Origin: Watersipora subatra
Lineage: Eukaryota > Bryozoa > Gymnolaemata > Cheilostomatida > Watersiporidae
NCBI RefSeq assembly: GCF_963576615.1
Contig: NC_088710.1
Coordinates: forward strand, 20,579,114 to 20,643,113
DNA: 64,000 nucleotides
Direction of reading: 5' to 3'
Under the pieces are notes generated by a model. The model was given only the letters and a program-made list of their open reading frames with translations. It was not told the origin of the DNA and did not search any database. Below are positions 9,464 to 64,000 of the stretch, one piece after another. A program made the position numbers and the translations under genes. Each line of letters starts with the position of its first letter. The first letter of the stretch is position 1.

Positions 9464-12137
9464 TTCTGACGCTTTAACTCAACCTGCATGTTTGATTGAA
9501 ATGGTTGATCGTAGCACAACAAATACGCAAGATTTGCCTATAATATGACAGAACAGTCTGATAATGTTTCCCAGTGATGTGAGAGGATGCTAGAACTGCT
9601 CTCACTCGCAATAACCCACAACACCAGTAACACTTTGAACCATGCAGCGTAAGGTGGAGTTAACATGGCTTACTTGACTGTAAAACAATGCTGTTAGAGC
9701 TAGTTTATCGAAATCAGCAATCAAAATTATTCAAAACGAGAATCATGGTAAACTAGCAGTTTTGATGTCTTTTTTATATGTTTATATTCCATTCCTAGCA
9801 TGATGAACCTGCCACAGACACTCTAGCTATTAGCTATCTTTCCTACCTACTTGTTGTTAGAAGTACCTACCTCCAGACAAAGCTTTGCTGTAAGATGCTT
9901 GGTTCAAATGCATAATTTTGTTTTGTGGTTTTTGTATTCTATAAGCCTGCTGCTAAATTCGCCTGTAGTCTTATGCCAAGGTTCAGGATTTAGGGCAGTT
10001 AGCAAAACTGTATTACTTCTAGGATAATGCTGGCTAAAAATAGCAAAATTTATGCAAATTCATTACAATACCAAATCAAAAATGATATTAGAGTAATTTT
10101 TCAAATCTTTTTCAAATCGTGTTTTAAATCTATTCTCACTAATGGTACTCGGTTTTCGGTTTTTGAAAGGATTGTAATAGTTTGATAAAATTAACTATGC
10201 ATGCACAAGCCATACTCTACCATACTTGTTACAACTATAATTTTGCAGAATATGGATTGGTGCAGCCCTCTTTGCCTGCTATTATTGTGTTAGCCGCATA
10301 CAGCCACACATTGCATCCAGTTTATTAGTTCTAAGCTGTCTTGTGCTTACTTGGTGTATAGCAATGTAGCTAGCTGGCAATGAGAGTACAAATAGTTTTC
10401 TTTTTAAGGAAAAGGCTAGTCAAGTCGCAAATAGTCAGAGTTGAACACTTCCGTATGACTGGTGCTAGGCCTAACTTGTATAACAGTCACAAACTGCAGC
10501 TAAACTATTTCATATAGCTTACAGAGCTTATAAAGTTATAGTTGTCTCTCCTTAGAAAAGTAGCACTATAATACCAGCAAACTACAAAAGACTAATCCTG
10601 TAATAGGTTTATGTACCCTCAAAATGACGAATTTATGTGGTAGAATTTACACCAATATGTTTAAAATGGAAAGTACTTAATATTGCAAAATACTTTCTAT
10701 GGCCGAGAATCAACATAGATTAGATTAATGTCTGCGTTAGATTGGAGCTATTATTTACATTATTCTATTTTTATTAAGATTTTGCAGAGCTCCTTAAATT
10801 TTTAAAACTTCATTGAACAAAGCTTTTATTACGCACATACATGCTGTACCTGTTCACTAAACTACAATAAAATAGGTAGAGACAAATGCAAAGATAGATT
10901 GGTTTTCTTGAACCAAACTTGAAATTATTTTTGTTTAGTTAGTTAGTGTTCAGCTCAAATAATTTGGACCTAGTTGACAAGATCATCAATGCAGAACTGG
11001 CTCATTTAAATCGAATTTAGGCCTGACTAATGTAGATCAGACTACAGGCCAGACTACATAGAACACATAGACAGGCTGGATGACTTGTATCAAATGCAAA
11101 CTTGATTGATGTGGGAGGGTTAGGGTTACGAGTACTTTTTTAAAATAAGCTGTGAGCTTGTAGGATGAAGTCTTAACAAACAAGTGAAAAAAAAATTGTT
11201 CGCTCAATCAATTATACTTTTTACAAGAAATTGGTCCAGTCAAATTTGTACACCTAAATTAATGCTATAGTTTGTCCCCTTATGAACCGTATGTATACTG
11301 ACAGTCATCGATAATGTGATGGTTTATTCGAAGATAAAACAATTAGTTTATATGTTCTATTTTGTTCATTGATGAATCAACCATTACAAGAAATTGAAGC
11401 CATATTTGTGCAAAACGATTAGTGAGGGCTGACAAAAAACTCAATGTTCAGCGTATATACATACGCACTCAAAGCAGATGATTGATTGAAAATAAACATG
11501 TTAAATGATAAAACGATTACGGTATACAGATAATCTGAGAATGAGTGAGAGAAATTATGTTCAATCATGTTAGTACCAATCATTTGCAACATAGGAGTTG
11601 ACAATAATAATCAAAATCTACTAAATCAAGAGAGACTTCCGACGAGTGTTGTACGACATTAGGTGTTTTTTCAGAACAAGCAAACAGCTTGAGAGTGTAA
11701 AAAACATGAACCTTTTAGGTACATAGTGTCTCTCGTAAAAAGCCAAAAAAATAAAGGCAACAAAAGATCCTCAAAACCTTGTTCTTGCAATAATGAGCTT
11801 TTTTACAAAGTTGACAGCTTCCCTTCCCTTTTGCCAAAACAAATCGCATCAGTGCAGGATGCTTCATACAATCTGCTATCTATGAAGGAAACCTCTCTAG
11901 CATCTCACAGAAATTCCAAGATTTGTCTTGGTAGTACTGATGCCAAAAGTAGCATCAGTAAATAAGCAGTTCACAGCACCACTAAAGGAAAGTATTGAGC
12001 ACAAGGAAGGCATCAAACACAAATTGCAGCTCTGTTTCAGTATCCCTTGAAGAGTTTTGCAGACCCATTGCGGGACTGTCTCATTTTAGGGCTGTGTTCC
12101 AATGTTTGTTGATGTTCACACCAATTTTGCATTAGTA
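9464..12137. other. Gene-free spacer upstream of the NIPSNAP-like gene
   Basis: This would include the promoter of the minus-strand NIPSNAP-like gene, but no TATA box or other recognisable element stands out. One small open frame at 11726-11965 is listed separately. Confidence 0.4.
11726..11965 (+). CDS. Possible orphan exon or gene fragment, unrecognised
   Basis: This 79-codon open frame follows an acceptor-like CCTTTTAG and ends in TAA. Its start codon is GTG, so if real it is an internal or last exon. The product is Lys- and Ser-rich with CSCNNE near residue 18. Composition is less AT-rich than its surroundings and looks protein-like, but I see no family match and no partner exons. It could equally be chance or a transposon remnant. 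Confidence 0.18.
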   Translation: MSLVKSQKNKGNKRSSKPCSCNNELFYKVDSFPSLLPKQIASVQDASYNLLSMKETSLASHRNSKICLGSTDAKSSISK

Positions 12138-20600: not shown

Positions 20601-23045
20601 ACTTTCTACTAAAGCTGATTTGCTGTGTAGTAATGAGAAATGAAAAATGAAAACCTAGTTAAATAAATTTGTAACTTTCACATGATTTTAATTGCATAGT
20701 TTTTTTTATGAGACAAATGCCAGCAGTTATATATATAGTTATATATATATACACTATATAGATTACTCCAATATGTGTATCAGTATTTTTCAGTCTATTA
20801 GAAGCCCATTTCAGTCATTTTCTTTGTTAAAGCTTATAGCCAGGGTAGACAGGCTGGCTCTATATCGCTTTTCTGCATATAACTAAATTTACACAGGCTA
20901 TCTTCCTGTTAAACACAATGCCTGCAAATCCAAATGTATTTGTTTCTCCACGTGTTCACAATTCATTTCGTTGTTATCTCTTGGTTCAAGCTGAGCTTAA
21001 ATATTGAAACGAATAAAAAGCCAGTTAAATAATTATAATCCAGCATCAGCCATTAAATCATGTAGTATTGATAAATTATTACGCATAAACTCTATTTACA
21101 TTATAGTCCATTGCAATGTTAAACCAATACAATGGGGTTGGCTAACTTCTTAAACCATCTTTATGGTAAGTCCATGATCATTGCCTCAAGATGTACAGCA
21201 AACAATGCAGTCTGACTGCAATGGAGGATAGCTCTGAAAATAGACTAGCAAGAGATTTGAGGTTATGTAGGATTTGGGTTTATCAAAAAAAGCAGACAAC
21301 TCTGACAGTAAACTTGCAGGCAATGTTAGATTAGGATTCGTGCGGAAGACAACTCTGAAAATAGCTGGAAGACGCGCTTCCATATTTTTTTGCTGCTAAT
21401 CCGTAGCTTAATTTCTTTGTAACAAGAGCTCAGGTGCAAAGTCTGCTCCTTTTGATTTGATAAGTATGTTTAATTCATTTGTAACCCGGTGGGTTATTGG
21501 CATATATTTTCTTCTCTAACGATCAACCTCAGTGATTTGCTTCAAAATATAGGTATATGATAGCCTTTTCTCTACACTCACAATCAATCATGCAGATTGT
21601 TAATATAATGAGCTACTACACTTGTCCTACTGCTGACCTTGAGAGTTATTCCTCTTGTTTTCTATCTTATCAGCAACTTCTCTCTTTTCCTTTGGACATG
21701 TTTAGATGTGATAGAACCTTAGGAAGAGAGCTGACTCTAACCGCTGGATGGCTGACCTAATTAGAAGTTATTAATATGTTTAAAAAGCATCAAATAACCT
21801 CAAAAACTATCTCTGCTGACTATTATGTCATAACAACAAACAACAGCAGCTTCGACAGCAGATTAATGTAAAGACAAGCTAAATGATAGCTACCACTATT
21901 ATTCAGTTTATAATTAAAATTGAAGCATAAATGATTATCGTTACTATTTTTCTTTACAATCATTAGCCATTTTGAACGATAGCATTCGTAATTGATGAAT
22001 GAGAAATAGTTCATATATATTTGATTTGTCGAAATGAGTGGTTCCCATCGGACAGGTTGCAATTTTCATTGAACTATCATAGCCGAGTTATCCAATAAGA
22101 GACTGTATCTCATTTTATATCAAAGTTATAGCCAAGTTATCAAATAAGAAACTGTATTTCATCTAATATCAAAGTTATAACCAAGTTATCCAATAAGAAA
22201 CTGTATCTCATCTTATATTAAAGTTATAACCAAGTTATCCAATAAGAAACTGTATTTCATCTTATATTATATTAAAGTCATAGCTGAGTTATCAAATACA
22301 AAACTGTGTCTCATCTTATGTCAAGGTTAAACCTCTAATTTGTTAACAGAATTGATAAGAGTATAGTCAATATGACAGCTATCAACCAATCCGAACCAAG
22401 TAATAAGTAAATATCTGTCTCTACTTATATTGTATTGCATTTCTTACTAGCCACTTGCCGTCATATTTGTGTTTCATCACCATTTTAGCTCTCATTTCCA
22501 CTTGCATATTTAATAAACAACAGAATAATATTAGCAGACTATGTTTGTTTCAAGCGTGTTGCTCTATTTTGCTCTCCGTAGTTCCGACTGATGAATGACT
22601 TTCAAAAGCACATTCCCAACTACTGGGTGCGCTACCAGACACGCTTTCTGAATGACGTACTAGAAAAGACGGTGATGCTGGTATCTGTTGGTGGAAGAGG
22701 AGGGATGGAAATACAACCTTTCCTTAATGTCACTCCTGTACATCTGCTAGCACTTGTGGACCCAATAGCGGAGTGGTTCACCAGATGGACAGTGAGTTGC
22801 CCTTTACCTATTACATAATTGTTTTTGTTAGAAAATTGTGTTTAGAGCTATTACACTGGGCTGACATTGCGAAAGGTTCAAAGTAATTGCGTGATGTCCA
22901 TGTTGTGGTGTTTGCCATCATGGTTATTTTAGTTTCAAAAACTTAAAAATGGAGTGTAGACGTTTGCGTTTAGTTATACATGTTGTAAATGCAACTGTTG
23001 ATGCAATAATAGTCTGCAACTATCGTTTCAAAAATGTTCGTCCCT

Positions 23046-23106
<61 letters not shown>

Positions 23107-26100
23107 AGAGACTCACTGATTATTGCAGTGGTATAAAGGCGATAATAACGCTCTACTTGGCTAAGAGATTGATTTTTGATTACCGTGGCTGCTGTAAGTC
23201 AGTGTCGTATAGGGACACTGCTGTAAGTATGCTAGGCTTAGGAAAGACATGACGCATATGCACGCGACCATGACATCCGTATTATTGAAACTGGAAATGT
23301 ATAGCTTGGTGAAACGTTTCCAACGCAGAACCAATGCGAGCCATACAGGTATCAGACAATGTCTCTGCTGAATAATAATTGTTTTATATTGTATGTTAAA
23401 AATATATGTACAAACAGTTACCAATTTTGTTTTAGGCAAACAAGTAAAGATAGAATCATAGATAGTTAAAGAGAGATTTGTAATCATGATATTGCATGTT
23501 GCAAAAACATTGCTCTTATAATGACAAAACCATAACTATTGGCAGCTTGTTGTGTTCCATTCCTGGCCGTATTGTTCAGCCCAACTAAAAATGCCAGCCT
23601 ATTCTCATGCACAATACTGTGCAAATGGTTGCTCTACTAGAAAAAAAAACCACCAGAGAAAAAAACTAAGGAACGCCCATGTATCAGCACAAAAACTCTA
23701 AATTTTGCGCGTGTATGACTTGTTTCATAAAAATGCATTTCACAAAATGTACAAGAAGAAGCTCATATGTCTGGGTATTAATACAGCTTGTGGAGTTGAC
23801 CGCTTTACCTACCATGCATACAAATTTAATATAAATTCTAGTAGCTAACAAAAAACAGTCTTTGTGATGTTCCGCATAAACATTGCGTGAAACCTATTGC
23901 TATACACATAGTTAAGATAAGCTTCAAAACTACATGAAGGAAAGACACCCCTTTACGGGCGTATGTGAACAACAACCATAAAAACGTAAATAGCCCGTGA
24001 CATGCATAGATTCTAATTTGTCCCAAATAAGCCAGGCGTTGAATTCAGCTATTAATCATGATGATCTCCCATTATCTGTAGTGATAGTGTCAGGTGTTCA
24101 TACTAAATGATTGATACCACTTTCACAGCATGGCTCCTACAGTCGTCTGCCCCTGTTTGAGGTCATGAAGCGACAGCATGGGTTCTTGGAGAGTCTCGTG
24201 AAAAGTATCCTCGAGTTTGTAGAGTCTCGACGTGTACCCTTTGACCTCATCAGTGAGGCATCGGAGAGCGTGGCAAGTCAGCGAGGAACAGTTGGTACGT
24301 GTTAAGGTCATTGATCACTCGTAGGCTTTGTGAGACCAAATAGGTTGGGTGTAGAATATTTATTCTGTTTTATTTTTCATTTCAAAACTACATTACTTGA
24401 TATGCATGGAATCACTTTATGGTACTGCATAAACATAGTCCATACCAGGGAACCGTGAGAAGACAACTCCGCTAGTTTAAATAGGTATTGTATACTACAA
24501 AGCTTGGCTTGAAGGAGATTTTATAGGCTAACTTGTACAAAGTGACAGCACTTATATACATGGGATAAAAGTAGCTTGGTAGTTAGTTATATGTCGTCTG
24601 CTTGTTTAACAGGATCCCACCAGCAGAGATTCACCTACACTGGTCTAGAGCTGGAGTACTTCTACTTTGTACATGCCATCAACATTGTGGGCCGTATTCT
24701 TATCTATAAACAGGGTCTCGAACTGTTTCCTGTTAAAATCGAAGGCTACAAAGGTGAGCTTCTAACATCAAGCAGTGACATTCTATCAACCTACAGTGTT
24801 CATGTTAATATCTAATATATAATGACTCCTTCATGCTAATATTCTGCATGTCGGAATCAAGATAGCTTTGGGAGTTTCGAAAAAGATGAATTTTGTGTTT
24901 TCCTTTCACCATGAATACTGTAAAACATCTAAATGAACGCCACCTCTATTTGACCACCACTATTTGACCACCACTATTTGACCACCACTACACTACTACA
25001 GGAGAAGAGTTGAAAAATAGAGCGTCACCCTTTAATTGAACGCCACCTCCATATGACCACCTCTATGACATTCTTTGATCTGTACAAACCCATAGTGGCA
25101 AGTGATCAGTAGAAGTGTCCACAAAATCGTATTAATAAGGACTTGGTTACATCAATAACAATTCTTTAGTTGTTTATGCTTGTATTGAAGTCCGTTTTTC
25201 AACGCCAAAGCTTTTCGGTTTTTGTCATTAAAACTTTGAAGACAGCACCGTAAAAATAATTAATAACTGTATCAGATTGGTAGCGGTTCCTTGTTTAACG
25301 CAATCTTGATACATCAAAATATAGGAAAAACGGTTCACATTTACGATGGTATATGGAACGACTAGTTTTAGGCTTAAAGTTTGTCATTATTCGTGCGAAA
25401 TGCAACGTTTGAAAGATTTGCTCAGCCAAAAAAATGGTTTGGACACTAATATCGACTAGTTCAGCAGTGCAGAAGAGTAGTTGAAATCAAAAGACATTGT
25501 GGAAGGTATTGAACAGCCAGAAGAAGATAAAATCGTTTCAAAGGAAAGCAACAATCAGAACGCAACTGTCCGAGCAAATGATGCAAATATTTTTGTTTAA
25601 AAATGTTAACTTTTGTTTTTGCATGTATTGTAAGTATGGTTTGTTTATGTCACTTGTTCTTAAATATTTGTTTGTAGCATTTAATAGATTATTATATAAC
25701 TTTTAAATTTGTAGATTTATAGCATAATATTTGGTAGCATCATTGCGTTTATATAAAGCTTATGATGGATCGGCGCTCATAGCTCCTCTTCTATTGCACA
25801 TGAAAAGCTAGTTTTAGCTCCAAACTGTAGAAAACATATCGATAAGTGCCATGAGTTTTTTTATAGAACATTGTTAAATACAGTTATGAAATATAAATAT
25901 GCCTTCAAATTTAGACTGGAAGAAAAAGTTGAAAGCAATAAATTACAAATCAAGGCCACAGGCTATAATATCATTGCTGGTTAATTGCAAGCAATAGATA
26001 TCAACTGGTAGAGATATTTGTCGGACACCCAATGCATATTTATTTAGAGATCTACAAGAATTTGGAGGTAAGTTAGCAGATTTTTTGCATCTAAAAGAGT

Positions 26101-32100: not shown

Positions 32101-35100
32101 TCTTTTTGCCGATTTTAAAGATAATTCTGACATTTTGGACACTTATAATGAGTACTTTGGTATTCCAACCGATGTCCAAAGCAGTGAAAGTAAAGGAAAT
32201 GATGATATTTTTCTAACGATTCTTATAAGATTATTACAATATTTAATAATAAGAATAATTATTTGATTTTATAAGATTATTATAAGATTTAATTATAAAA
32301 ATAATCATTCGAATTTATAAGATCGAAGCATATAGTGACCGACGGTGTGCAATATATTACTGTTATTGTTTTTCTACAGATTTTGTTGATGATACTACGG
32401 CTGTGCCCAATATCGCGGTACTGCCAAGCCGTTTTTAATATCTACAAAATTAAGTAATAGGCTTACATTTTCTTATAGATATACAGCTATTTCTATGACA
32501 ACCAACTAAAATCTGTTTAGATTTTTAAATTTAGCATAATTTTTTGCATATAAATACAAAAATCTAGATAAATATCACAACTTCTTGATATTGGTTGCTA
32601 TGACGTTTTGAAATGTAAACAAAATTGTGCATTGGTTTTGGTTTCTCAAACTTTAACACCAGTTTTCTCAGAACTATGTTTTCGCACTAATGGTAAACAT
32701 GCATTCAGTTTATTGACCATAAAATCTGCTGTAATTAAGCTGGAATCAATATTTTTTGCAAAATAACTGAGAATTTTCTCCCTCTGCTAGTGTAAATAAC
32801 TCTAAATCTCACACACCCGACTTAACCATGGTTTTTGTGATCATGACCCATTTCTTCACTTCGGTTACAGATCGCTGTCAAAACCATTCTACATTCAGCA
32901 CAACCAACTTTCAAACTGTGTATATTACACAGCAGCTTGCCATTTCACTTCTAATATTGCATTTCTCCTATTGCAAGGGAGAGATATAAACATAATTATA
33001 ATCTTTTCCTTTCATTATTGCTGTTTGTTGTACATAATAACACCCAGTACATTACAGCTACCATCGCAGCTACCATTGCAGTTCTCCTATTGCACTGCAG
33101 TGCCATTTGACTGCTAATATTGCATTTCTCAACCATCAGTACCCTTTCTTTTTTCCATTATCACTTTGGTCGTGGGCTGTATGACAGGGGAATTTCTAGT
33201 ATATTATTCTTCTATTATATATAAATAGCATGTATATGTTATTCTATTATATATTATTAATATATATTATTTTTCTATTGTATACAATTTTTATATATGC
33301 CTATATTGCTTCTATATACCGGTATATTATTTTTCTATTATGTATTATTTACTTATATGTATTTATATTATATATTGTTTCTATGTATTATTTACTTATA
33401 TGTATTTATATTATATATTGTTTCTATGTATTATTTTTTCATTGTATATTATTTTTATACGTGTTATTGTTCTATTGTTTATTGTCCATGTATATGTATT
33501 GTTCATATATATTACTTTTCTATTATCTAGTATTTTAACATTATATATTATTTTTCTAATTGAATTTTATTTTTGCATGCTCTAATATTTTTCCATAATA
33601 TATTTTTTCCATTATATATTATTCTTCTATTATATACTATTTGTATATTTTATATATACCATATATGTATATACTGAATGTCAAGCGATCACAGTTATTG
33701 TAACTTGGTTTAGAGTGGCACGTTTCATAAATTGCTTAACACAAACATACAAAAGTTCTAAACACTAAAAATTAGACACCATAAATATTGAAAGACCGAT
33801 TTAACTATAAATCTTTTGACTCTCACCATTGAAACGCACAATCAAAGATTGTTATATGTTTATATAAACATGTGACATGTTATTGTAGGCATCCAAAGCA
33901 TTGAACGGTGTTAGGGAAAAACAGTCAGCTGCTAGTAAGGAAATGTACGTACTTAACAGGAAGTTCTTTCTGCTCCTATTCTTATATGATGCTACTATGG
34001 TTGTTTGTAGACATCTACTTACGACTCTGAACTAAGATAATTGGCAGCATTCAACACTTATCAATCATTGTTTGCATGTTCATGCTGCTGTATTCACGGT
34101 GGTGTGGTAGAATACAAACCAAATGTATTTGAAGCAGTAAGGGAAATTTGATTTAGGAAAATTTAGTGGAAATTTTATTTTTAAATTAAAATTTAATTTA
34201 TTATTTTAGCTCTACTTATACAGTTTCAATATAGTATATTCTTGTTATTTCATATAGGTGTAGTCTTGCGTGTATATCTCCTGTGTTGATTATCAGTGAC
34301 TATAGTCTCTTTTGTACAAAATATCTGTTGGGAAATAATCACACATAAAAATAAAATAAAAATTTTTTTAAAATAAGTTTTATTAAGTTTTTTAAACTTA
34401 ATTATAAATTAAAAAGGATATTTAGTCAATTCAGTGTTTAATTTTTACAACTTATTGTCAGAATATCCTGGGAGGAGGAGTTGAAAGACAACCTTTTGAG
34501 TTATGCGACAACTCCAAAGGGTGTGCTGCTAATGCAACAGTCAACAGCTATGTACGCTTGCATAGAGCATCTCTGTAAACGCCATCGCAACAAGATTCAA
34601 GTCAGCTCTCTGGAGAAGTTTGGCTATGGCAGCGTCATCACCCAGATAGCTGGTACAGCTTGTGGGATGCTGGAGTTTGAAAAACAGGGTGAGTGCTAAA
34701 TGGGTGATTTGGAAGCTTTTTTGTATGTTAAGATTGCAGTAGGTTTACAAATTTACACTGATTGTCAGATCTCATGCCTTTCTAGCATGGATTGTGGCAA
34801 GATTAACCTGTGGTTGCTTTAATACCAATATTGTTTTGATTTAAAAATGGTTGGTTGCTGTATTGGCTAATCTGTTACTTACACATAAACTAAGACTCAG
34901 CTATGACTCAGCTATGACCCAGCTATGACTCAACTATGACTCAACTATGACTCAGCTATGACTCAGCTATGACTCAACTATAACTCAGCTATGACTTAGC
35001 TATGACTCAGCTATTACTCAGCTATGACTCAGCTATAACTCAGCTATGACTCAGCTATGACTCAGCTATGACTCAACTATAACTCAGCTATGACTCAGCT

Positions 35101-38100
35101 ATGACTTAGCTATGACTCAGCTATTACTCAGCTATGACTCAGCTATAACTCAGCTATGACTCAGCTATGACTCAACTATGACTCAACTATAACTCAGCTA
35201 TGACTCAACTATAACTCGGCTATGACGCAACTATGACTCAGCTGTAACTCAGCTATGACTCACCTATGACTCAGCTGTGACCCAGCTATGACTCAGCTAT
35301 AACTCAACTATGACTCAGCTATGACTCAGCTAAAATTAATTAGATGCAAATCCGAACAAATTGAGTTTTTTTAATAAAATTTGCTCACAACCTGTTCTAG
35401 GAGTATAAAATCTGTGCAATGTGATGTTAACCCAACTTTGTTTGATGAACAATTAAAAAAAGTTATAAAACCGCGTTTCGTAGCGATTGCCCGACTGTGA
35501 AAACCCATAATCAATTCAAACAACTTTCTGTCCATCAAACTGCTATGAGACAATAAGTTACCAGTTAGTATTTTTAGCCATGAAAGTCTGGTTAGAATAT
35601 AGACTCAGCTCTAGACTTTGGCAAATAGATATAGTAAGGTTAACAACTGTTGACCATTAATTTTGTTCTCAGTAATAATTATTTTCGTATAAACCAGAAT
35701 CAGTTGAATACATATTGTACAGAGTTAAATTTGACATACTTTAATATACATGTACATGTATGTAATTAGTTAAATATACTTAATATATGCTTAACCTAAT
35801 ATATACTTAAATAGATGATGTTATATGGCATGTAGATATATGATGTGATTTGCATGTGGATTGTCTAATGCACCCTTTATCTGTTTCCTGCAAATCTTCA
35901 ACAATTAAAGCAGTTGGTGTACTGTGAAATGTAGCATCCAATGAGCTAGGTGTTTGATTCCATTATAGGTCTTGTGAACCTGTTATGCCAGGAGGCGTGG
36001 GACAGCATTGAGCCCGGAGAAGACTTAGAAATTCCTTTTCAGCCCAAGGTCTGGGCAGTTGATGCTATTGATAAGTCTGCCCACAAGGTATGTCCAATCA
36101 TATGAACAAGTTATAATTACTTAATAGGTAAGTGCAATCATATATACATTTCACACACATACTCAAGGTAAATTACAGTTCTAATCAATGGATTGGAATT
36201 CACACCAAATATGGATTTGTACAATCATGGATCTCCTTGTAATTAACTTAATGTATGGATTTTCCAAAATGCGATGTCAATTTTCTAAGATGTGATGTGA
36301 AATTAGAGCAAAGATTTGCCTCACTACTCCAAGAAGCTTTGAACTTATGATGTTAAAAGCTTCTTGAAGCATTGCAGTTATTGTAAGTAAAAATAAAATT
36401 AAAAAACATCACAAATATAGAAAATAAAATGATACAAGAATTTATAAATTAAGTTAGTTTAAACTTCATTCAGTTAGAGAGTTAAATTTGTTGCATATCT
36501 CTATTACCACAATATACCTCTTTGTCCACAATATACTCTCTTTGTCCACAATATACTCTCTTTGCCGACAATGTACTCTCTTTGTCCACAATATACTCTC
36601 TTTGTCCACAATATACCTCTTTGTCCACAATGTACTCTCTTTGTCCACAATATACTCTCTTTGTCCACAATATACCTCTTTGTCCACAATATACTCTCTT
36701 TGCCGACAATGTACTCTCTTTGCCGACAATGTACTATCTTTGCCAACAATGTACTACCTTTGTCCACAATGTACTATCTTTGCCTACAATGTGCTATCTT
36801 TGTTCACAATATACTCTCTTTGCTGACAATGTACTATCTTTGCCCACAATGTACTCTCTTTGCCGACAATGTACTGTCTTTGTCCACAATATACGCTTTT
36901 TGCCGACAATGTGCTATCTTTGCCCACAATGTACTATCTTTGTCTACAATGTGCTATCTTTCTCCACAATATGCTATATTTGCCCACAACATACTATCTT
37001 TGTCCACAATTTACTATTTTTGCCCACAATTTACTATATTTGTCCACGATGTATTATCTTTGCTCACAATCTACTATCTTTAGTCACAATGTACTATCTC
37101 TGTCCACGGTGTACTAGTAAGAATGTCTGCTCTATTATTTGTGGCAACTCAAGTTGTTTTTTAGCCTTTAGTCAATCTTATACACATCCTCTCCAACTTC
37201 ACCTCTGTATTTGAACTGCTTGGAGGCGAGAAACTGCCTGTGAACCCTCAGTACACCTTCCGAGACCGACCGTCATCACTCATCGTATGTTTACAATATC
37301 TCAACCAGTTCAGTTTTTTTAACACTTGTCATCACTTGACTACCTTGTTGTATTTGTTGCAAGTTGTCATCTGTGTCATGCCTAAACAACCCTAGGGCAA
37401 TGACAACTTCTTGTGCAAAACTATCAGATTTTTTGGTTTTATCAAATATTCAAGTACATACATGTATACCACATGTACCAAGGTAGAGATTTGCTATCAC
37501 TGTACAGATGTAAGACTTTATTTTTTCATTGGTTCATTATGTTTCAAGTTATGCATCGAATCATATACAGTGTTTATATATCGTGTATAGATATTAATTT
37601 GTTTCAGCGTTGTCTTTGTAATTAGAAACCCATAGTAATTATCTAGTTGTTTTTCACCCCCTGGTAGAAAACATCGAAATTTTATATACGTACTTTACAT
37701 ATTAAAAATTAATAACCAAGTGGCATATTAACCTTAGTAACTATAGTTACCTATAGTAACTTTATTGTATTTAGTGGTTATGATTTGCAATAAAATGTAA
37801 CATTACAATGTACTACGTGCAGTACGTATGGTAGGGGACTCTTACCTTCGAGGCAGACGTATAATATAAACTTAGTACTTAACTTAAATGTATTTAGCTT
37901 ACTAAACACACGCTTAGAGGTAAGTTTTAGTATGTATTTTACTAAACTAAAATTTAATTTTGTCATCATCTTTAATACTTATTTCCAGTTTCATTTTCAA
38001 TATAACATTTAATGAATATGCTGAACTGAGAGAGAGCGAGCATCAGATCTCTTTCAGGCAATGCGAGATGGATTTCAGCGAATAGCATATTCCCATTTTC

Positions 38101-41100: not shown

Positions 41101-44100
41101 GAAAGCGAATAGACGAGTTTTAGGAAGTAGAATCCTTAATTTTTTTCTTTTTTGCCACAATATACTATCTTTGGCCACATTATACTATCTTTGCCTACAA
41201 CGTGCTATCTTTGCCCATAATGTACTATCTTTGCCTACAATGTACTATCTTTGCCCACAATGTACTATCTTTGTTTACAATGAACTATCTTTGCCGACAA
41301 TATACTATATTTGCCCATAATATACCATCTTTGCCCACAATATACTATCTTTGCCTCCAATGTATTATATTTGCCCACATGTACTATCTTTGTCCACAAT
41401 GTACTACTAAGAATGCCTGCTCCATTATTTGTAGCTACTCAAGTTGCTGTTTTTTTAGCCTCTAGTGAACCTTATACACATCTCCTCCTCTTTAAAAATC
41501 AACAGTTTTAAATTTGTTTTAAATTGTGCCACTTTTTGAAAGTGGCATAATTTAAAACCAACTCTCTAAAAGTGTTTGTGTTTGTAAGTTAGTTATTTAT
41601 TTCTAATAAACTAATCAACGGCACCAGTTTTAGTACAATATGAAATTTTCCATAGTAGTCCAATGAAGGGGTGAACAATAAATTCTATATATTAAAGGCT
41701 CACTCAGGCGGACTGGAGTTACCCCTCATCACATCTGCCACCCCACAGAAAGAGTACCTGCTTAACATTGCCAGCAAATCGTCAATGAAACAAGGTGCGT
41801 CCATTGTCAACCTTTCAAGCACCAAAATATAAACTCCATTTAGATCAGTTTGATTCATAGAGACTGGGTTGAGCTGATGGAAATTCTTCTCAAATATATT
41901 TTTAGTCTCGCTTGGAAAGACTAAATTGTTTAGACATGAAGCTCCAAAATTTACTTTGCTGCCAATAAAAAATAGTTTGAAGACATGATGGAGTGGGGGA
42001 GGCAACTTTAGTTCAAATAGAATCTCATTAGCATTCAATTGGATATCTCCTAGCTGACGTGTAGCAAAATACCCTGTCACAGAACTGCATTAGGTGTATT
42101 TTATGTGTTTGTATGTGGCTGTCAGTAGTGACAATATGCCGGTCATGTGAAGTAAAAGCACTTTATTTTTAACTCAGTGTAAATACCAAAATAATTTGAA
42201 TTAAATGCAAGTACTCAAGAGCAGCAAAGGCATTATGGGTAATGCACATATGTGAAAAAGTGTTGCTGCCAAAGACCTGAGATTTTTATATTTTCTTTAA
42301 TTGAAAATATAGGTTAGAGTCAGAAAATAAAATTTGTCAAATTACTTAATTAAAAATATTACAGCTAGAAAAAGGTAGTCGTTTAAACAGCTTAAAACAA
42401 AAGTGTTTCTGTCTATGTGTATATGATTCATATTAACAATTATAGATAATAGTTAAACAAAATGTTTTTACTGATACTGTGTGCAAAAGCTGAGTCAACG
42501 GAAGTGTGAACTCAAATCAACAGACAGAATCAAAATCTCTCAAACCCATCAATTTAACAATCACTGCTGTTTGGAGACTAAGGCTTCTGCTTATTTGAAG
42601 AAAACGTCCAGGATTTCAACAATTTTAATCTAGTTCACAGTCTAACCAGACTTAGACAATACACTACTCTTAAACTACAAAGGATAAGATCACAGTCTAT
42701 CCAAACTTAGACAATACACTACTCTTAAACTACAAAGGATAAGATCACAGTCTATCCAGACTTAGACAATACACTACTCCGAAACTACAAAGGTTCACAG
42801 TCTATCCAGACTTAGACAATACACTACTCTTAAACTACCTTGAATGAGATTGTAAAGTTTTGTGAATTTGAGAAGACAACATTTGTAAAATCTGACACAG
42901 TTGCTGATTTAAACATTATGAAGTGTGTCTGTGTGTCATTCCTGCTTCCATTTCTCACCAGAGTTAGATTAAACAGTAATCTTCAATTTTGTTTTAATAT
43001 TTAAAAATCTGATCAATACTTGCTGGGTGAGCAAGAAGTACAAAATATTGGGAGCCTCTGACAAAAGTGTAATGCACATTCTACCTAACTTTTCTATATT
43101 TGAGTCACCAGTTTACTGGTCTTAATATTGATGTACATGTAAATTCATTCAGGAAGTTCATACAGGAAGTTCATACTCTCATACAAGCTCATCTCTCACG
43201 CAGGGTTACAGTTGGGCTCTGCAATCGTAACTCATACCTACACATATGTTTCGAAAATCCATTTACAATTGTGTTTATAATGTCTACCTGCTGTCTGTAT
43301 GTATGTACTTATGATGTCTATTAGCTGTTTGTAAGTATGTACTTACTTATGACGTCTATCAGCTGTTTGTATACATGTATGTACATACTTATGAGGTTTA
43401 ATAGCTGTTTGTAATTATGTACTTAGGATGTCTATTACCTATTTGTATGTACAGTATGTACTTACTTATGAGGTTTAATAGCTGTTTGTAATTATGTACT
43501 TATGATGTCTATTACCTATTTGTATGTACAGTATGTACTTACTTATGATGTCTTTTAGCTGTTTGTATGTATGTACTTGCTTATAGGGTCTACTAGCTTT
43601 TTTATGTATATATGTACGTACTTATAGGGTCTACTAGCTGTTTGCAAGTATGTACGTACTTATGATGTCTATTAGCTGTGTGTAAGTATGTACTTACTTA
43701 TAAGGTCTACTGGTTGTTTGTAAATATGTATGTACTTATTAATGAGGTTTACTCACTAGCTGTTTGTAGGTACATGTAGGTATTTAGCAATGAGATTCAA
43801 ACGAGATTATATCAAAAAATTTCAGTACATCTTCTATTTGCTTGTAATTATTATCTGTTGGAAATCAGTTTCAGGTATCCCCTAAGCTATATCATTTATT
43901 TCTCTCATATTTTGGAGTAGGGAGTATGGTTCTCAATAAGTGCGATATGCTATATAATATAACTGTATGATATGCTATATAATATAACTGTATAATATGC
44001 TATATAATATAACTGTATGATTTGCTATATAATATAACTGTATGATTTGCTATATAATATAACTGTATGATATACTATATAATATAACTGTATGGTATGC

Positions 44101-53346: not shown

Positions 53347-56300
53347 CTATGATAGTTCGAATCCTGTGTTATTAAGAATGCTGTAACGCAACTTGTCTCG
53401 GAGAATTCGTTTTTTACTATAATTTGGCAGCTTAAGCAGGTTGAAGCAGGTTGAGGAAGTTGGTAGACGTCCTGCAGGCTCATTCTTCCTGATACTGAAG
53501 AATCCTTTTAAGACACTTCCTATGGTGTCCCCTGTGTCCTACAATAACAATGCTAGGTTTGCTACTTCTTAGCAACAAACATCAACAGCCATTAAATTCA
53601 ACTACAGGAATAAAACATATGGTATCGAGGTTGTTCATATTTGATGAAGGATGGCAGTTACCTGGTCATCAGAGACTTCTACACAGCGGATGGAGAACGG
53701 AGGCTCAAGTTGGCCAAATCCAAGAAGAGGAGGCTTAGAGCATGACGTTATAAACTGGAACAACAATACACCTGACAGTGTAGTACAGTGTAGCATAAGG
53801 AGACATCTGTATGCCTGCGGGGACTAGCAACACAGCTACGACTTATAATATTTTTAACTATACCTGGGCACATTGAGAATTAGTAGAACATATTCCTGTA
53901 CATATCAAATACCACATCGCAGTTACCCGCAAACTCTGAATCAGTACATCTATATGTACATCCCATGCATATCTGGCAGACCAAATTTCTGTACAACTAT
54001 CAGACTATACCTGCATATATCTGTTAGACTAGTGTATATTATGCAGGTCACTGACCTTAAGAAACTGGCCCCTCTCTTTTTCATTGAAATCCTTCTGAAG
54101 AATATCCCAAAGCCAGTTGACCACTCTGTGGTTATTGTGGAAACCACCATAATACTGGGTATGTTTCCTGTGAGATAACGACGTTAAGATTAGGCCATGA
54201 CTGCAGACAGATAGGTAAAAGTACATCAAATAAAACACAGCAGTAATGAATCCGCAAGTCGCCAAGATTATCGGCCAGTGAAAAATCTTGTGTTTTCTAG
54301 ACGAAAGCAACATAAATAAAACTAACCATATCCTGTCTCTGTCTGACTGTCAGCATTATCAGTATATCTAATTTCAGAGATAGTGTAATGTCTTTGACAA
54401 CACAAAACATTTAGTAACAATACAGAATAAAAGCAGCTATGTAACCGTACTTTTTCGGACTATTAACCGCACCCCTATATAAGCCACATCTGCTTTATTT
54501 TCCAAAAACCGATAATAAAACAATATATAGGCCGCACCTTTGTGTAGGCCACAGCACTCAGGACGGTGCTTTTTAACGCGGCACCAACTTTGCTGTTTAA
54601 AACAGACGCTTATTAACCGACGCTTTTTAACCTAGTGCCTAATGGAATAGTACCGTTAGGCATTGTTTCATATTTTGTTTCACCGTTGGAGGCGCACTAA
54701 CCAGAGATTCTGATTAATGCGCCCTAGCGGTGAAAGAAAAAGCCACAGAATAGCTGCACCCTTATATAAGCCGCATGGCTCAAATCATCAGAAAAAAGTA
54801 GCGGCTAATAGTCCGAAAAGTACAGTAAGTGCTCAAATGTTGTTTTGATCTAGTCAGCTTCCCTTTGAAGGCAGTACAACATCCTACTTCAGGCTTCTTT
54901 ATAAATCTTGCCCAGCCAGTCTGAGCGCAGGATAGACACACCCTTCTAGTCAGTGGTGCTTTAGTTATAATCATACCACATTATGACTAACATTCTTACA
55001 GAAAAATCCTACCTGGAGTAGTGTTGAAGGCTGCCGCAGTACCTAGAGTGGTAATGAAGGCTGCCAAAGTGCAATAGAGAAAAGTTGAAATGATCTTACC
55101 TCAGATCCGCGAGGTCGATATCGATAGTGTCACCCGAGATGAGTTTCTGCACTTCTGGTGTAGAGAACATTTGCAGCCATTCGTAACTGACGATTGACCC
55201 AAACCCTCGAATAAAAGCCTTTGTCTGTTCTCGAATCCGTGTGTGCATCTTGAACCGCGCCATGTAATGCACATAACTGATTCTGAAATTAAAGAAAACT
55301 GGCTTCAGAACCCAGTCTTAAGTATTTTGGCTAAACAATCAAATTTCTACTTTCGATTGCCAAAATATAAAATTTTTTCAAGATCTGAAGCAAAACTTGA
55401 GCAAATATTTGAGTCTACATTTTAAAAATGAACTAAAATGATTTCTCAAGATTAAAATCAACAGAACTTGATTGCGATTAAATATGTTCAGAAAAATATA
55501 TGCCAAGATGACATCACTAGCTTCGGTCTGCCTGTCTCTGTCGTTATTGATATCAGCTATTGCATTCAAGTTGAAGCGTTGACATCTCTCATTCTGTCGG
55601 TCTCTTTGCCGAAGTGCAATTATAGACATAGTAATCGCACTTCTGCTTGAATCTGACCGTTTTAACCGCGATCAAGTTTTTTCAATTTTAATCAATAAAC
55701 ATCCTTGCAGTCAGATCACCTCAAACATAAAAAACAAATGCAAATGATAGAAAATTACCGACACTTTCAGAAAAAAACTACTAAGCTTTTGTGTCAGTTT
55801 ATCTTTAAGTCATTTCCAACCTAAAATGCTGGAAGTTTCTCAGTGTAGTAAAGTTTGCCGGTGAACGAAAAAAGGTTGAAGGCGAAAACTGAAACTTACT
55901 TATTGGCATTCGTAACAGAGATGGCTCGTCCTCCAGGTTTCAGTTCATAATTTTGCAATTTCCCCATAACATTCTCATCATAGGAGAAATTTAGCTCGAG
56001 CTCCTCTATATCTCCATCATAGTGCTACAACAGGACTATATCTCTATCATAGTGCTACAACAGGGCTATATCTCCATCATAGTGCTACAACAGGGCTTTA
56101 TCTCCATCATAGTGCTACAACAGGGCTATATCTCCATCATAGTGCTACAACAGGGCTATATCTCCATCATAGTGCTACAACAGGGCTATATATCCATCAT
56201 AGTGCTACAACAGGGCTATATCTCCATCATAGTGCTACAACAGGGCTATATCTCCATCATAGTGCTACAACAGGGCTTTATATCCATCATAGTGCTACAA

Positions 56301-59300
56301 CAGGGCTTTATATCCATCATAGTGCTACAACAGGGCTATATACCGTATCCATCATAGTGCTACAACAGGGCTATATCTCCATCATAGTGCTACAACAGGG
56401 CTATATCTCCATCATAGTACTATAACAGGGCTATATCTCCATCATAGTGCTACAACAGGGCTTTATATCCATCATAGTGCTACAACAGGGCTTTATATCC
56501 ATCATAGTGCTACAACAGGGCTATATACCGTATCCATCATAGTGCTACAACAGGGCTATATATCCATCATAGTGCTACAACAGGGCTATATCTCCAACAT
56601 AGTGCTACAACAGGGCTATATCTCCATCATAGTGCTACAACAGGGCTATATATCCATCATAGTGCTACAACAGGGCTATATATCCATCATAGTGCTACAA
56701 CAGGGCTATATCTCCATCATAGTGCTAACACAGGGCTATATCTCCATCATAGTGCTACAAAAGGGCTATATCTCCATCACAGTGCTACAACAGGGCATCA
56801 CATGTGCAGTGCTACCAGTGAATGTCAATGTAACAAATGGCAGACCAAAAACAATTGCAGGAATAAAATTTGTACAGTTAAATTTTACCTAAAGATATAA
56901 TGATAGTTATGCTAGCAAATATTGAGAGTTTAAGGTCTTGTCATCTTCCACTGCGAGTCAGTGACTGCTGCCATTTTTAGACTTGAAAGCATATTGTATT
57001 TATTCGCATGTGACACAGAACAGATAAGAAGGCTTTCCTTAAGAATGCTTAATATCCCTGACAACTGAATAGCATGATAAGGTTTGAATCAATGATAGAG
57101 AATGACACATAGCCTGATGATGGCACAAGCCAATAAGCAGACTGTTACTGAATGATAAAACTAATAATACTAAATAATAACGATAAACCATAAAAAGAAT
57201 AATATTGATGTTGAAATTTTGAAAGTGGTTCAAAAACGTAAATGATAGTTTCCTTGGGGCACTTGGTTAAGTTTAGTGGAGCATATGAAAGATAGGCAGA
57301 CTCTGTTTGTCTACTGCATCTTGTAATGGAATGTCACTTTTCAGAGATTAAATGTACAGTAAACACTCCTGTAACACCAACCTCCTTTAACATACAGTAA
57401 GTTCCACTTAATGTAAAGAATCTATGTAAAGTTTTTGCTTCGTATTACATAAACAATTCATTAAAGTGTCAAGTCAGAGCAAGTTCTCAAATTTGATTTG
57501 AATAACACGAGTCCCATAGTTGGCCTTAAAACATTTTTTCTCTTTTGGCACGCACGCTTGGGAAAGAAAACGATGCATATACTAGCACCCTGGCAGTCTA
57601 ATGAGCTGCGTGTCAAGAGTTGGAGACTCATCGAAAGCAGTGTTTTATGCTAATCTCTAACACCGGCTACGGACGGGCAGACAGATACCGTTGTTACTAG
57701 GGTAAATATATATTCTTGATTTTCTTTATTTTAGACATAAATTTTGTTTGCAGCATAGACCTTGCTGTCTAGAAAAAAGTGAACGAAACTGATTTAAATT
57801 GACATTAATGGTATGCGCTTAATGTAAAATCACCATAATCATAAACCCTAAATCAAGTGAAAGTAAGAAGAAACAAGAGAAAAAGTTGTCTTTACAAACC
57901 AATAATACTGAAGCTACTGTAAGTCCTTAAAATAAAAAGTTTAGTTTTTTTCTATTTGACGTGCCAAAGGGGTGAGTTTGAGACGATCTTGAAACGGATT
58001 AGACAATTTACATGTACTTTACAGTATAAAATGTATTTTACGTATGTTCGTATAACATGCATGTAAAATCAGTATAACGTTAACGCTCTCGAAACGGATT
58101 ATTGTAAGAGCGTCTACTGTAAACATCTAAATACTAATTAGGTCAAATTACGCTAAGGGTATGATGAGAGTCAGTACGATTACTGTACACAGACAGCTGC
58201 AACCTTCCTGAACTAACTGAAAGGAGTAATTTGCTTTTAAATGCTGTGAAACAGTGAGTAAGATCTGACCTTGACATAGGCGAGGTTCTTGTAAAGTTCT
58301 GGGTCAAGAGAAGGCAATTCATCAAGATAACTGTACATGGAGTTTTTGGTGTTGTCTAACACTTGTGTAAGGAAAAATGGTGCAAATGGAACATCTACAA
58401 CGATTCCCTACAATTAGGAATGCATTGTTATGATACCAGCAGAAGGTGATATCAAAGCATATATAAATTGAACATTGACTAAAAAGGATATTCCTATAGC
58501 CATTGTAGCATATTATAATAATTATACAGTCATACTTCGACTTACGAGCCTAATGCGTTCCAAGACTGAGCTCGTATGTCAATTTACTCGCATGTTGGTG
58601 CAATTTATTTATATATAGAACAATTAAATATATATTGATTGGTTTCCATACTCTAGAAAATGCAAATAAAACACTCAAAACAAGATATTGTAACAGAAAG
58701 AACATGCTGGTTATTGTCCTAACATACCACATGCTTTCAAAAAGCAACAAATAAAAAATAATGCAAGGAAATGTGATAAATTAAAATGTAAAATTAAATA
58801 CATACAATAGCAGCCAACGCTAGCATTTGCCAGAGAGGGAGATATAAGTTATCCTTCATTACAACAGTTGACTTTGATAAATTTGGATTTTATCAAAGTC
58901 TTGAAAGACAAACTTAGAAGCAAATCTAGAAGCAAACTTTCATTTTTAACTTAACGTAATTAAAATTTCTTCGGCGCTTGTAGTTTGAAGTTTCCCGCTG
59001 GTTAGCTACTTTTTCCTTTGTTTCGCTTTAACGACTAGCCGGCCGTTTTAAGATGAACCTATTTAAGGACGTTTGCCTTTGTCGCCCTTTCAACATGTTG
59101 CGATTAGGACGAACACAGGTGTCGTCACAAAGGTTTAATGCATGACCACTAGCCAACTTGTCCGAATGTCTATTTTTATAGTTTTGATAGATAGCACCGG
59201 CCTTTTCAAAAAGCGTCGTTTCAGTTACGCTGTCACCGGCCAATTGTTTATCTTTTATCCAATGCTTGAGCGTTCTCTCCATCAGCGGTCGTGAAGATCG

Positions 59301-61513
59301 CTGCGCGGTTTAGAAACTATGATTAGTCCTTTTGCGAGCTAAACGCCCTGAATATAATCCTTCTGTTTGATAATTGTGGATGTATTTCCGCCATATTGCT
59401 GAGCTACACTGTAGCTCAATCACACATACACATTTCGCATATTTTTCAATAATTTTCCGTTTAATATCAATTGTTATCATTTGCTTTTTCTTTGCATTAT
59501 TTTTCATTTTACTGGCAAACTTTCGGTCTACGCGCAGTACTTTTAATTCACATAATTCAGCACTGAAAAGCGCGCACAAAAACACAGTACAAAAGTATAA
59601 CCTGAGCAGTTGAAAAATACAGATTGATGCTGTTGTCATAAAACACCTCCGGCATACTTGGCAACTGACTCACGTGCTCGTATCTCAAACATGACTCGTA
59701 TGTTAGTGCTAAAACTTGCTTACAAGCTGGCTCGTATCTCAAGTTTCTCGTACGTTGGAGCACTCGCAAGTTGAAGTATTACTGTATATCCATATGTTAA
59801 TGCAGCCTATTGAAGAGAGGACAACTCTCAACTTAACATTTCTTAATTACCGCAGTGTATGTCTTATATGTACATAGTGTACAATGCTTAAACTTCACCA
59901 AGTCCAAGTTAGTCACCTATCACCACCTCTGAACCAACTCATTGCTGAACCTATATTTCTGTTCACCTGTCTATTAGGTAAAATAACAATAAATACATAT
60001 TTTTGTTTAATAATATTATTGCTAAACTATATTAAACTTATAAACTATTATAACTTTGTTAACTCAGTTTATCATATTTAATTTTTGTTGCATAGTGTTA
60101 TATAATGCATTTGTTTTAATGTTATTCGTAATTACCTGCAATATTTATTAAAGAGTAATCATAGGCAGTTGGATTGCAAGACGAATTACTGTACAGCTGA
60201 ACCTTCACTTATGAAAGAATCTTCTGCATACAAAATTTTCAAGTTGAAAAACATTGAGAAATATTGCTTCGACTCACATGTCTCTAGATACGAAAGTTCG
60301 ATGAAACAAATGAAAGAAATGGGCCATACTTTGGCCCATTTCTAACAGATATTACCTACAAAAACATAGTGATGCATAGGAGCCTGTTGATAATGAAGAC
60401 ACTTGAAGAGTTTTTGTCTTGTTTTTGCTAATCAGTAATGTTAGAAACTTTGGCACTTCCGACCTGTATGCACTCAACAATGAAAGGTTTAAAAGAATAA
60501 GTAATATTGGTTATATAAAGTAAGTTTAATTTAAAGGTTACAGACGGCCATAACAAAAAATTGTACAATGACCTTGATGGGACTCGAACCCACAATCTTC
60601 TGATTCGTAGTCAGACGCCTTATCCATTGGGCCACAAGGCCAGGTGCCAAGCATAGAAAATATTCGGTTTGAGAAGTAATTATGTTATTGATGTTTGTGT
60701 TTTGGTCTTTGAACGCTGTGCAGTTCAGCCAATCAGAATAGAGCGAAAAAACACACTGAGGATTTAAATTATACGGGAGATTATGTCGGGGTTTTGTGCG
60801 GGCTCGGAATGGATCTAGGCGGTTATATAGTAAAATGAGTTTCTTACGTACAGTTTTCTTTTTACAAAACACCTTCCAAAACGAATTAATTTCCTTGATA
60901 GAGGTTCCACTGTACATTTTCACAGGCATATTTTTCCTATATGCGACGGTTTCAAATGGAAAGCAGCAAAAGGTAAGTGTTCCTATGTGCAGCAACAGTA
61001 AATTACAGCTTATTTCAGCTGGATAAAATTAAGCTATGAGCACCTCGTAAATGAGTAGGAAAGTACTTAGTTTTGACAAAATATAAATATATGTCTCATT
61101 TCTGTAAACGGAAGTAGTCTCACCTCATATACAGCCTTGCCAAGGATCCTACCAACAAACTCGAACAGTTGAAGGTGATTTTCTTGCACAGAGGACGTTG
61201 GTGATGGATAGAGCTTTTGCTCGGCTGTAGCCTAAAAAAGGAGGCACTGTATCATCATACAGAGTGCTGAGACAGTATACACTAACCTGTGACATAATAC
61301 ATCGACCTCAGATAGAACTTATAGCTTCTCTGTACAAGTAAAGCCCAGCATTAAAGATACAAGTGACTATCTGAAGCAGCATATACTGTACATAAAGTGA
61401 CAGCTCAGCCGTACCATGAACAGGTTGAGTCCAGGATCAAAGACTTTCTTAATGGTTTCTTCAAGGAACTCTTTGAAGACTCCATCTTGGTCAATACCTG
61501 CCTCATCCAAGCC
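53347..61513 (-). CDS. UBE3B: UBE3B, HECT-type E3 ubiquitin ligase, last eight exons (partial)
   Basis: Minus-strand exons are 61513-61415, 61231-61124, 58407-58270, 56024-55900, 55282-55100, 54167-54056, 53754-53662 and 53538-53347. All join in phase into 350 codons including the stop. They begin [19 protein letters not shown] and end TGFELS, and match the C-terminal third of UBE3B, whose human form is about 1070 aa. Landmarks in order: [78 protein letters not shown] and [15 protein letters not shown], where C is the catalytic cysteine that carries ubiquitin. UBE3B rather than UBE3C is indicated by [11 protein letters not shown] and YYGGFH. The protein transfers ubiquitin from an E2 to substrates; human loss causes Kaufman oculocerebrofacial syndrome. 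The upstream exons must lie beyond the window, past a retroelement. Confidence 0.96.
54442..54827. mobile_element. TA-flanked MITE, copy 2 (UBE3B intron)
   Basis: This is the opposite orientation of the element at 30431-30833. Its ends are ACCGTACTTTTTCGGACTAT and, in reverse complement, CTGTACTTTTCGGACTATTA. Shared internal blocks include TATATAAGCCACATCTGCTT and AGGACGGTGCTTTTTAACGC. Confidence 0.85.
55440..55700. mobile_element. Small foldback element (UBE3B intron)
   Basis: GATTAAAATCAACAGAACTT, then GATTGCGATTAAA (55450-55482), is mirrored by TTTAACCGCGATCAAGTTTT, then TTCAATTTTAATC (55661-55693). Both arms match part of the element at 39570-40301. Confidence 0.6.
56012..56805. repeat. 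30-bp minisatellite that repeats a UBE3B splice acceptor
   Basis: About 26 copies of a 30-bp unit; on the minus strand each reads CCCTGTTGTAG then CACTATGATGGAGATATA. That is a pyrimidine-rich AG acceptor plus the first 18 bases of the exon at 56024-55900 (HYDGDI). The exon-proximal copy is the real acceptor. Two blocks containing 33-bp variants (TATACCGTATCCATCATAG) recur about 184 bp apart. Continuing through any other copy reads HYDGDIALL and then TAG. Confidence 0.95.
57357..58119. mobile_element. TA-flanked DNA transposon remnant (UBE3B intron)
   Basis: Its ends are CAGTAAACACTCCTG and, in reverse complement, CAGTAGACGCTCTTAC, both bounded by TA. It is related to 45069-45440. The interior has no transposase and carries a SINE-like insertion at about 57585-57705. 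Confidence 0.65.
57585..57705 (+). mobile_element. SINE-like element nested in a DNA transposon
   Basis: A tRNA-like head (GGCAGTCTAATGAGCTGCGT, GAGTTGGAGACTC) is followed by the tail CGGCTACGGACGGGCAGACA, as in the elements at 3924 and 26494. Its position within 57357-58119 implies later insertion. Confidence 0.55.
58527..59784 (-). mobile_element. pogo/Tigger-like DNA transposon, internally deleted (UBE3B intron)
   Basis: The left end CAGTCATACTTCGACTTACG and the right end (reverse complement CAGTAATACTTCAACTTGCG) are flanked by TA. Inverted-repeat similarity extends inward with repeated CTCGTATGT and CTCGTATCTCAA motifs. The 1258-bp element carries a minus-strand transposase remnant (separate entry) but has no room for the DDE catalytic domain. 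Confidence 0.85.
59028..59639 (-). pseudogene. pogo/Tigger-like transposase remnant (DNA-binding part only)
   Basis: A single minus-strand frame is broken by one in-frame stop at 59310-59312. Before it, [20 protein letters not shown] matches the first helix-turn-helix of pogo/CENP-B-type transposases. After it, [20 protein letters not shown] matches their second DNA-binding (CENPB) domain. The frame ends [16 protein letters not shown], resembling the transposase C-terminal tail. The whole DDE domain is missing, so it cannot have been an autonomous source. Confidence 0.75.
60194..60912. mobile_element. Possible TA-flanked element enclosing a tRNA gene
   Basis: CAGCTGAACCTTCACTTATG on the left and, in reverse complement, CAGTGGAACCTCTATCAAGG on the right are TA-flanked and agree at about 9 of the first 12 positions. 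They may be the two ends of one element or single ends of two. The tRNA-Arg gene lies between them. Confidence 0.35.
60569..60641 (-). tRNA. tRNA-Arg (ACG)
   Basis: This 73-nt gene has acceptor GGCCTTG/CAAGGTC (one G-T pair) and discriminator A. The anticodon arm is TCTGA-CTACGAA-TCAGA with anticodon ACG, and the T-arm is GTGGG-TTCGAGT-CCCAT. A T-run (TTTTTT) follows about 9 nt downstream on the minus strand. It lies in a UBE3B intron on the same strand as UBE3B. A long open frame through it is an artefact. Confidence 0.96.
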
Positions 61514-62588: not shown

Positions 62589-64000
62589 TCAATGACTAAT
62601 AGGATTTCCATACCGCACAGGCATATTCCGCACCCTCGGTGGCCTGATTGGCGTATCAAACTTAGCACTCTGACCTTCTTCTGGTGCTGCTGGGTTGCTA
62701 CTTTTATCTGGTATATTAACTGCATTATCAGCAGTACCTACACCACTCGAAGCTAAACTCGAATCAACTGAAGAACCATTGTTAGAAACACCTAGACTAC
62801 CCCGCTGAACAAATCGTTTAACTTCAGAAACATTTCTACGCATTCTTTTTCCCTCGGAGCTCTCTACCACCACCTCTGAACCATGCTTTCCTACAACCTT
62901 TTGTTCCAGTGGATGAAATGTAGAACTAAGCTTGTCAGTCTTGGCCTGCCTTACCAAAACTTTATCTCCTATAATTATGTCATCCTGTGACCGACCTTCA
63001 TCTGTAAGAGTCCTACTTTTCTCCTGAGCCAGTGCTTGATGATCCCGCAGTTCACCATCCAGAGATTCCTGTCTCTCAAGGCAGGGTAACTTTGCCCTCA
63101 TTGGTCTTCCCCTCATTAGTTCACCTGGAGCTACACCAGTCACTGTATGAGGTGTGGAACGATATGCTAACAGAAACCTTCTAAGCTCAGCTTTGTAGTC
63201 CTTACCGAACATATGTGCTATTTTGAGACTTTTTAACAGGCTCCTGTTCTGCCTTTCCACCTCTCCATCAGCAGCAGGCCACATAGGGGTAGTTGATAAC
63301 CAATAAATACCATAACTTTGCAAAAACTCTTGGAACTTGCTGCTGACAAATTGTGGACCATTATCAGTCCTGACACTTGAAGGAACACCCCATCGACATA
63401 TTATGGAATCAAGAGCTGCCGTGATTTTATCTGATTGAGTAGACTTCAAAAAACACACATCAAAGTAACGACTGTAGTAATCAACTACTACAAACACACT
63501 TTCTCCATTAGGCAGAGGTCCCAAAATGTCACAGGCTATATGCTCACCATAAACGATCTGGCATTTTAGTAGATACCATAGGAGGAGGTTTTGAAGGTGC
63601 ACTAACCACTTGGCACTCATGGCACTCTCGACATTTAACTTCTGCCTCTTTGTCCATTCCTGGCCACCATAACTTGGATTGAAGTAGATGTTTAGTCTTT
63701 TCTATTCCTTGGTGACCTTCGTGTGCCAACTCCACAACCTTTGCTCGCAGCACCACTGGCATGACTATATTGTTGCCTCTGATGACAACGCCTTCAACAT
63801 CACTCAACTTCGTGTACACTGACCTGTAAGCTGGTAAACAAGTAGACCACCTTCCATCTAACAAAGCATCTCTCACTAGTTTCATCTCAGAACAGTCAAT
63901 AGATGCCTTCTTGACCTCGTCAAATGACATTGCTTTAGGAACTGACAATCTAGCTACAGTATGTACATATTCATCAGCAACATTAGCCACATTCCTGATG
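62589..64000 (-). pseudogene. Ty3/Gypsy retrotransposon integrase region, frameshifted, partial
   Basis: Read right to left, the upstream frame (64000 to about 63545) holds the integrase zinc finger: HEGHQG, then KLWWPGMD, then CRECHEC. An extra T near 63550 shifts the frame, and the downstream frame resumes at EHIACDILGPLPNG. Catalytic residues are visible: D in CDILG, D in VRTDNGPQF and E in GEVERQN, with 35 residues between the last two (DD35E). A basic C-terminal tail follows to a stop at 62589. Reverse transcriptase, protease and gag would lie beyond 64000. The element is in the same orientation as UBE3B and lies between its known exons and its missing upstream part. Confidence 0.9.

Follow-up and report, generated by a model that had tools for sequence, protein, structure and literature searches.

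The end of an intron in a UBE3B-like gene, together with the start of the following exon, is repeated in tandem about 26 times, and the resulting array runs directly into that exon. We consider it very likely that this minisatellite was seeded by a 30-bp tandem duplication across the UBE3B acceptor and then grew to about 26 copies, of which the innermost is the working one. The array lies on the minus strand of the 64-kb stretch of DNA that was analysed here, which we will call the window.

Gene context of the array

Minus-strand reading frames form a run of HECT-domain exons, eight of which we joined by hand for protein comparison. The best PDB match of the joined product is UBE3C (6k2c, E 1.3e-85), indicating a HECT domain of the UBE3B/UBE3C type and bearing out the gene assignment made in a first-pass annotation of this DNA; the choice of UBE3B over UBE3C as the gene name is our assumption from the human proteins. 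A genome-wide search with the Pfam HECT profile gave 64 matches, four of them on exons of this gene in the window, namely on the exon at 56024-55900 (E 5.3e-4) and on three other stretches. The junction discussed here connects an upstream exon (58270..58407, GIVVDVPF...YKNLAYVK, with donor AAG/GTCAGA after 58270), placed by homology to UBE3C, with a 125-nt exon (55900..56024) that begins HYDGDIEE, is followed by a GTAAGT donor and is supported both by UBE3C homology and by Pfam HECT. Between them lies a phase 0 intron of 2245 nt (56025..58269) with the array at its end, all on the minus strand. Since the protein joined from 58270 to 56024 aligns without gaps to UBE3C (6k2c) across the junction, matching FLKSYEDDVEELGLNFT, it is very probable that the true acceptor (56024) is that of the innermost copy, the exon/intron boundary being placed by homology. 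The exon adjoining the array edge is intact, that is, open over its whole length, with its donor and its ungapped HECT alignment, and it opens with the last repeat copy, which makes up its first 19 nt. A tRNA-Arg (acg) found by Rfam at 60569-60641 on the minus strand sits inside another intron of the gene as read.

Repeat structure

TRF places the array at 56006-56796 on the minus strand, with a period of 30 bp, 26.0 copies, 93% matches and a score of 1338, in agreement with the roughly 26-fold multiplication of acceptor and exon start noted in the first-pass annotation. Each unit comprises 11 nt of intron end (CCCTGTTGTAG) and 19 nt of exon start (CACTATGATGGAGATATAG), so that the arrangement proposed there holds but the exon part is one base longer than the 18 given. 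The unit consensus, cut at the splice point, is CACTATGATGGAGATATAGCCCTGTTGTAG. Allowing up to 3 mismatches, it has 24 matches between 56006 and 56795, every one on the minus strand and inside the array, and none in 100 dinucleotide-preserving shuffles. In the rest of the window, a BLAST search with the unit (E up to 10) returned 10-bp matches only, while the array stretch is found in its own genome (784 Mb, 239 contigs) only once, in the window and with 100% identity, by a search that skips very common words. A search of this genome for COX1 gave no match.

When cut at the acceptor, the units are 30 bp long except for two of 35 bp (56325..56359 and 56510-56544, both minus strand), which have a CGGTA insertion in common. 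These twins lie 185 nt apart among neighbouring units that are also alike, pointing to the duplication of a whole block. The copy number is taken from one assembly, and such an apparent duplicated block is also what one might see if it were an assembly product, with a few copies expanded or many collapsed; in the amphioxus draft, the excerpts of PMC3087553 mention one globin array of a similar kind that was misassembled. We find this highly improbable, however, as single differences occur at several places along the array, as in true minisatellites, and the sequence lies within a 76-Mb contig.

The innermost upstream unit (56025..56054, minus strand), which supplies the 30 nt preceding the true acceptor, departs from the consensus with GATAG for GATGG and TCCTG for CCCTG. 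In a reading by eye of the 30-bp units, 23 in number, six of the nine once-only substitutions fall in the two outermost units and the innermost one, albeit in small numbers. A special RNA fold of the array was considered and rejected: its folding energy of -250.7 compares with a shuffle mean of -257.4 (sd 7.3, z +0.92), and 17 of 20 shuffles were at least as stable.

Probable origin from the exon junction

How could such an array arise? We propose that a 30-bp stretch astride the acceptor, made of 11 nt from the intron end and 19 nt from the exon start, was tandemly duplicated and would then have expanded to about 26 copies through slippage or unequal exchange. The innermost copy, beside the intact exon and its donor, would be the working acceptor and would be retained by selection as the sole source of the protein. 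The upstream copies, now within the intron, may be mostly ignored, or may give early-stop transcripts that are then destroyed.

The direction of growth is a deduction, and it follows from the content of the unit: because its exon part is conserved, ancestral coding sequence that aligns to UBE3C, the array probably derives from the junction rather than the junction from the array. An origin from the junction, as the first-pass annotation had also supposed, is thus well supported by the sequence. In the opposite course, a minisatellite within the intron would have reached the exon edge by accident, and the start of the exon would have taken on the repeat sequence afterwards by conversion. This gains something from the density of minisatellites in this genome, but the exon start matches UBE3C residue by residue, which makes the exon-to-array direction simpler, and we hold chance abutment to be very unlikely.

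Minisatellites are indeed common here. Under one rule (period 8 or more, copies 5 or more, score 100 or more) the window contains 17 arrays, and 20 stretches of 10 kb together contain 27; these stretches were picked by hand without gene models and include four that lie no more than about 0.2 Mb away from the window and one that is all tandem repeat. In the repeat-filled stretch (L011, 1-10000, contig C3, near 60.0 Mb), TRF covers all 10 kb at a GC of 0.266, perhaps as part of a large satellite. When 23 hand-picked TRF arrays are seeded at random, 0.12 seeds are expected to straddle one of 15 exon edges of the UBE3B-like gene, some of these edges being approximate, and one or more does so in 11% of trials; counting other genes too would raise the chance of a junction-straddling seed. 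Since the genome is so rich in minisatellites, no special process is needed for a junction-seeded array, and we would expect similar arrays elsewhere in it. The flanks of 25 arrays in the window, inspected by eye with the exon boundaries left unmapped in the BROMI-like gene described below, showed no other junction-crossing array.

Consequences of upstream acceptor use

We listed 27 acceptors, defined as a TAG before the repeated exon start and including a degenerate one at 56811. Every one of the 26 upstream acceptors runs into a stop after seven to nine codons, and the innermost leads into the open exon, so the earlier view that the last copy alone gives the full exon stands. The nine codons followed by TAG that had been described for each upstream copy apply to 23 of the 26; the outermost (56811) reads eight codons and the two 35-bp units seven. 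In 24 of the 26, the stop is the acceptor TAG of the next copy, which is in frame because of the phase 0 intron and a unit length of ten codons; in the two 35-bp units it is an earlier TAG. Since all 26 meet stops, use of an upstream acceptor should cost transcripts rather than yield odd proteins. Transcripts with early stops are generally degraded, and this is the fate that we would expect for wrongly spliced products.

It might then be asked whether the array is a copy-number-dependent brake, with upstream acceptors leading to stop and decay and the repeat number setting UBE3B output. The early stops from all 26 upstream acceptors speak for such a brake. Against it, the acceptor half of the unit has no clear extra conservation (5/253 substitutions versus 17/437 in the exon half, 13 of the 17 at two positions, with the two 35-bp units left out). 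Related arrays in amphioxus, known as mirages, are moreover said in the excerpts of PMC3087553 and PMC3902484 to leave splicing undisturbed. The further evidence on the brake comes from the acceptors themselves and is given below; taken together, we regard it as unlikely, and the tuning of UBE3B output by array length or copy number, advanced in the first-pass annotation, is unsupported.

Acceptor choice and the branch point

On simple measures the true site looks weak, which counts against the innermost copy as the working acceptor. It has 9 pyrimidines out of 20 at positions -23 to -4, whereas the gene's seven other acceptors have 11-14; it has no perfect yUnAy motif 15-45 nt upstream, while five of those seven have one and two do not; and an additional AG lies 11 nt ahead of it. 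The correct choice thus does not look evident from the sequence by itself. In an acceptor matrix built from the seven other sites, the true site ranks 7th of the 152 AGs and second of the 27 in the array. The outermost clear copy, 56784, outscores it (7.02 versus 5.68), as a brake would favour, but the true site lies above the other 25 array acceptors, which speaks against one; this matrix is very small, and real sites left out one at a time score anywhere from -1.2 to 13.5. Acceptor strength was accordingly set aside as the reason for the choice, the matrix being too small to settle it.

Only one of the 27 listed acceptors, 56784, is preceded at 15-45 nt by a perfect yUnAy motif (TTCAC at 34 nt and TTGAC at 40 nt), again in favour of a brake; the motif is imperfect in 25 others, the true one included, and poor in one. 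However, a perfect motif also precedes 52 of the 73 non-array AGs of the same intron, which leaves little weight to that of 56784. Both motifs lie in the flank just upstream of the array (56797..56830, minus strand), which also holds the degenerate acceptor-like copy at 56811. Branch points usually lie further upstream than 11 nt from the intron end and, because the unit holds only 11 nt of intron, the branch point was presumably not copied with it. The ancestral one would then remain beside the outermost copy, likely within 56797..56830, with which the perfect motifs there agree. This would put it some 760 nt away from the real exon and leave the true acceptor dependent on a branch point composed of copied exon letters.

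The spliceosome prefers the first AG past the branch point, according to the excerpts of PMC7317903, a preference that would also work in favour of a brake. Given this preference, use of 56024 would therefore imply that the branch point lies in the last unit and that the nearby AG is skipped. We infer that 56024 is likely selected from the exon side, by way of the nearby donor and of GAGGAGCTCGAG, a purine-rich stretch present after the true copy only. A bolder reading is that the array has split the ancestral acceptor, with the old branch point and pyrimidine tract left beside the outermost copy and the old exon beside the innermost. Each extra unit would add 30 nt between the two, a makeshift branch point of exon letters would serve the true site, and array length would set how often outer acceptors win, a splicing dial on UBE3B. 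We give this little credence, comparable to that of the brake; if true, many genes in this minisatellite-dense genome could bear such dials.

With its about 26 near-identical 3' splice sites, the array provides a natural test of the first AG past the branch point against the AG nearest the exon's donor. If the intron is spliced cleanly, exon-side signals must decide, neighbouring copies being almost identical; if not, copy number would affect gene output.

Additional features of the window

A Pfam scan of ten frames, at 15792-48717 on the plus strand and 9119-9478 on the minus strand, gave matches to broad-minded (BROMI) domains in seven, one of them under the curated cut-off and with many minisatellites between these matches; of the remaining frames, one has a NIPSNAP match and two have no Pfam match. 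Two arrays about 4.6 kb apart in the BROMI-like gene (36507-37116 and 41151-41406, plus strand) have a common 20-bp unit. Their best alignment covers 340 bp at 81% and extends about 80 bp beyond both array ends into the acceptor-like TTTTTTAG, and from 36507-37116 it also reaches a possible exon start; judging from the alignment, the pair looks like a duplicated array plus acceptor. At 34890-35332 (plus strand) there are about 40 copies of CTATGACTCAG, a unit with the look of a branch point ahead of a CAG acceptor. An open frame of 370 codons at 62589-63701 (minus strand) looks like that of a retrotransposon integrase. Rfam reports only two tRNAs in the window, the tRNA-Arg mentioned above and a tRNA-Asn (gtt) at 23039-23112 on the minus strand.

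Relation to known systems

A literature search for UBE3B with minisatellite found no paper, and comparison must be made with other systems. In NAGNAG acceptors, sites three bases apart yield protein variants. As in these and other tandem acceptors, several sites here compete for one exon; unlike in NAGNAG, the copies are 30 nt apart and all upstream ones lead to stops. The gain of introns when the DNA around AG/GT proto-splice sites is tandemly duplicated (Rogers 1989 and subsequent studies, as cited in the excerpts of PMC3087553) likewise involves a tandem duplication around a splice signal, but the UBE3B-like array lengthens an existing intron and creates no new intron position.

The closest parallel is with the mirages, minisatellite-like duplications of exon/intron boundaries that were named in amphioxus Adh3 and, in the excerpts used here, are also described in globins (BflGb6, BflGb9) and troponin C, with the PGBD5 repeats likened to them (PMC3087553, PMC3902484). 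Both there and here a tandem repeat unit crosses an exon/intron boundary (11 nt of intron and 19 nt of exon in our case) and an intact exon stands at the array edge; in BflGb6, too, the 3' end of the intron is repeated together with the exon start. The published unit sizes (Adh3 10-72 bp, globins 150-160 bp, PGBD5 60 and 108 bp) bracket our 30 bp. The same excerpts report somatic instability of the Adh3 mirage (PMC3087553, PMC3902484) and edge units of a globin mirage that escape homogenisation (PMC3087553). Repeated AG/GT signals could, it is noted there, act as cryptic sites, and yet the Adh3 data and globin RT-PCR suggest that regular splicing is not interfered with (PMC3087553). The differences are that other genes are involved, that BflGb6 has 6 and 3 units in two haplotypes versus about 26 copies here, that the UBE3B-like unit has just 11 nt of intron, and that our array is known from DNA alone. 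On its sequence, the UBE3B-like array is a further case of a kind of structure already described in the amphioxus mirages, and its interest lies in its clean design and not in a new class of structure.
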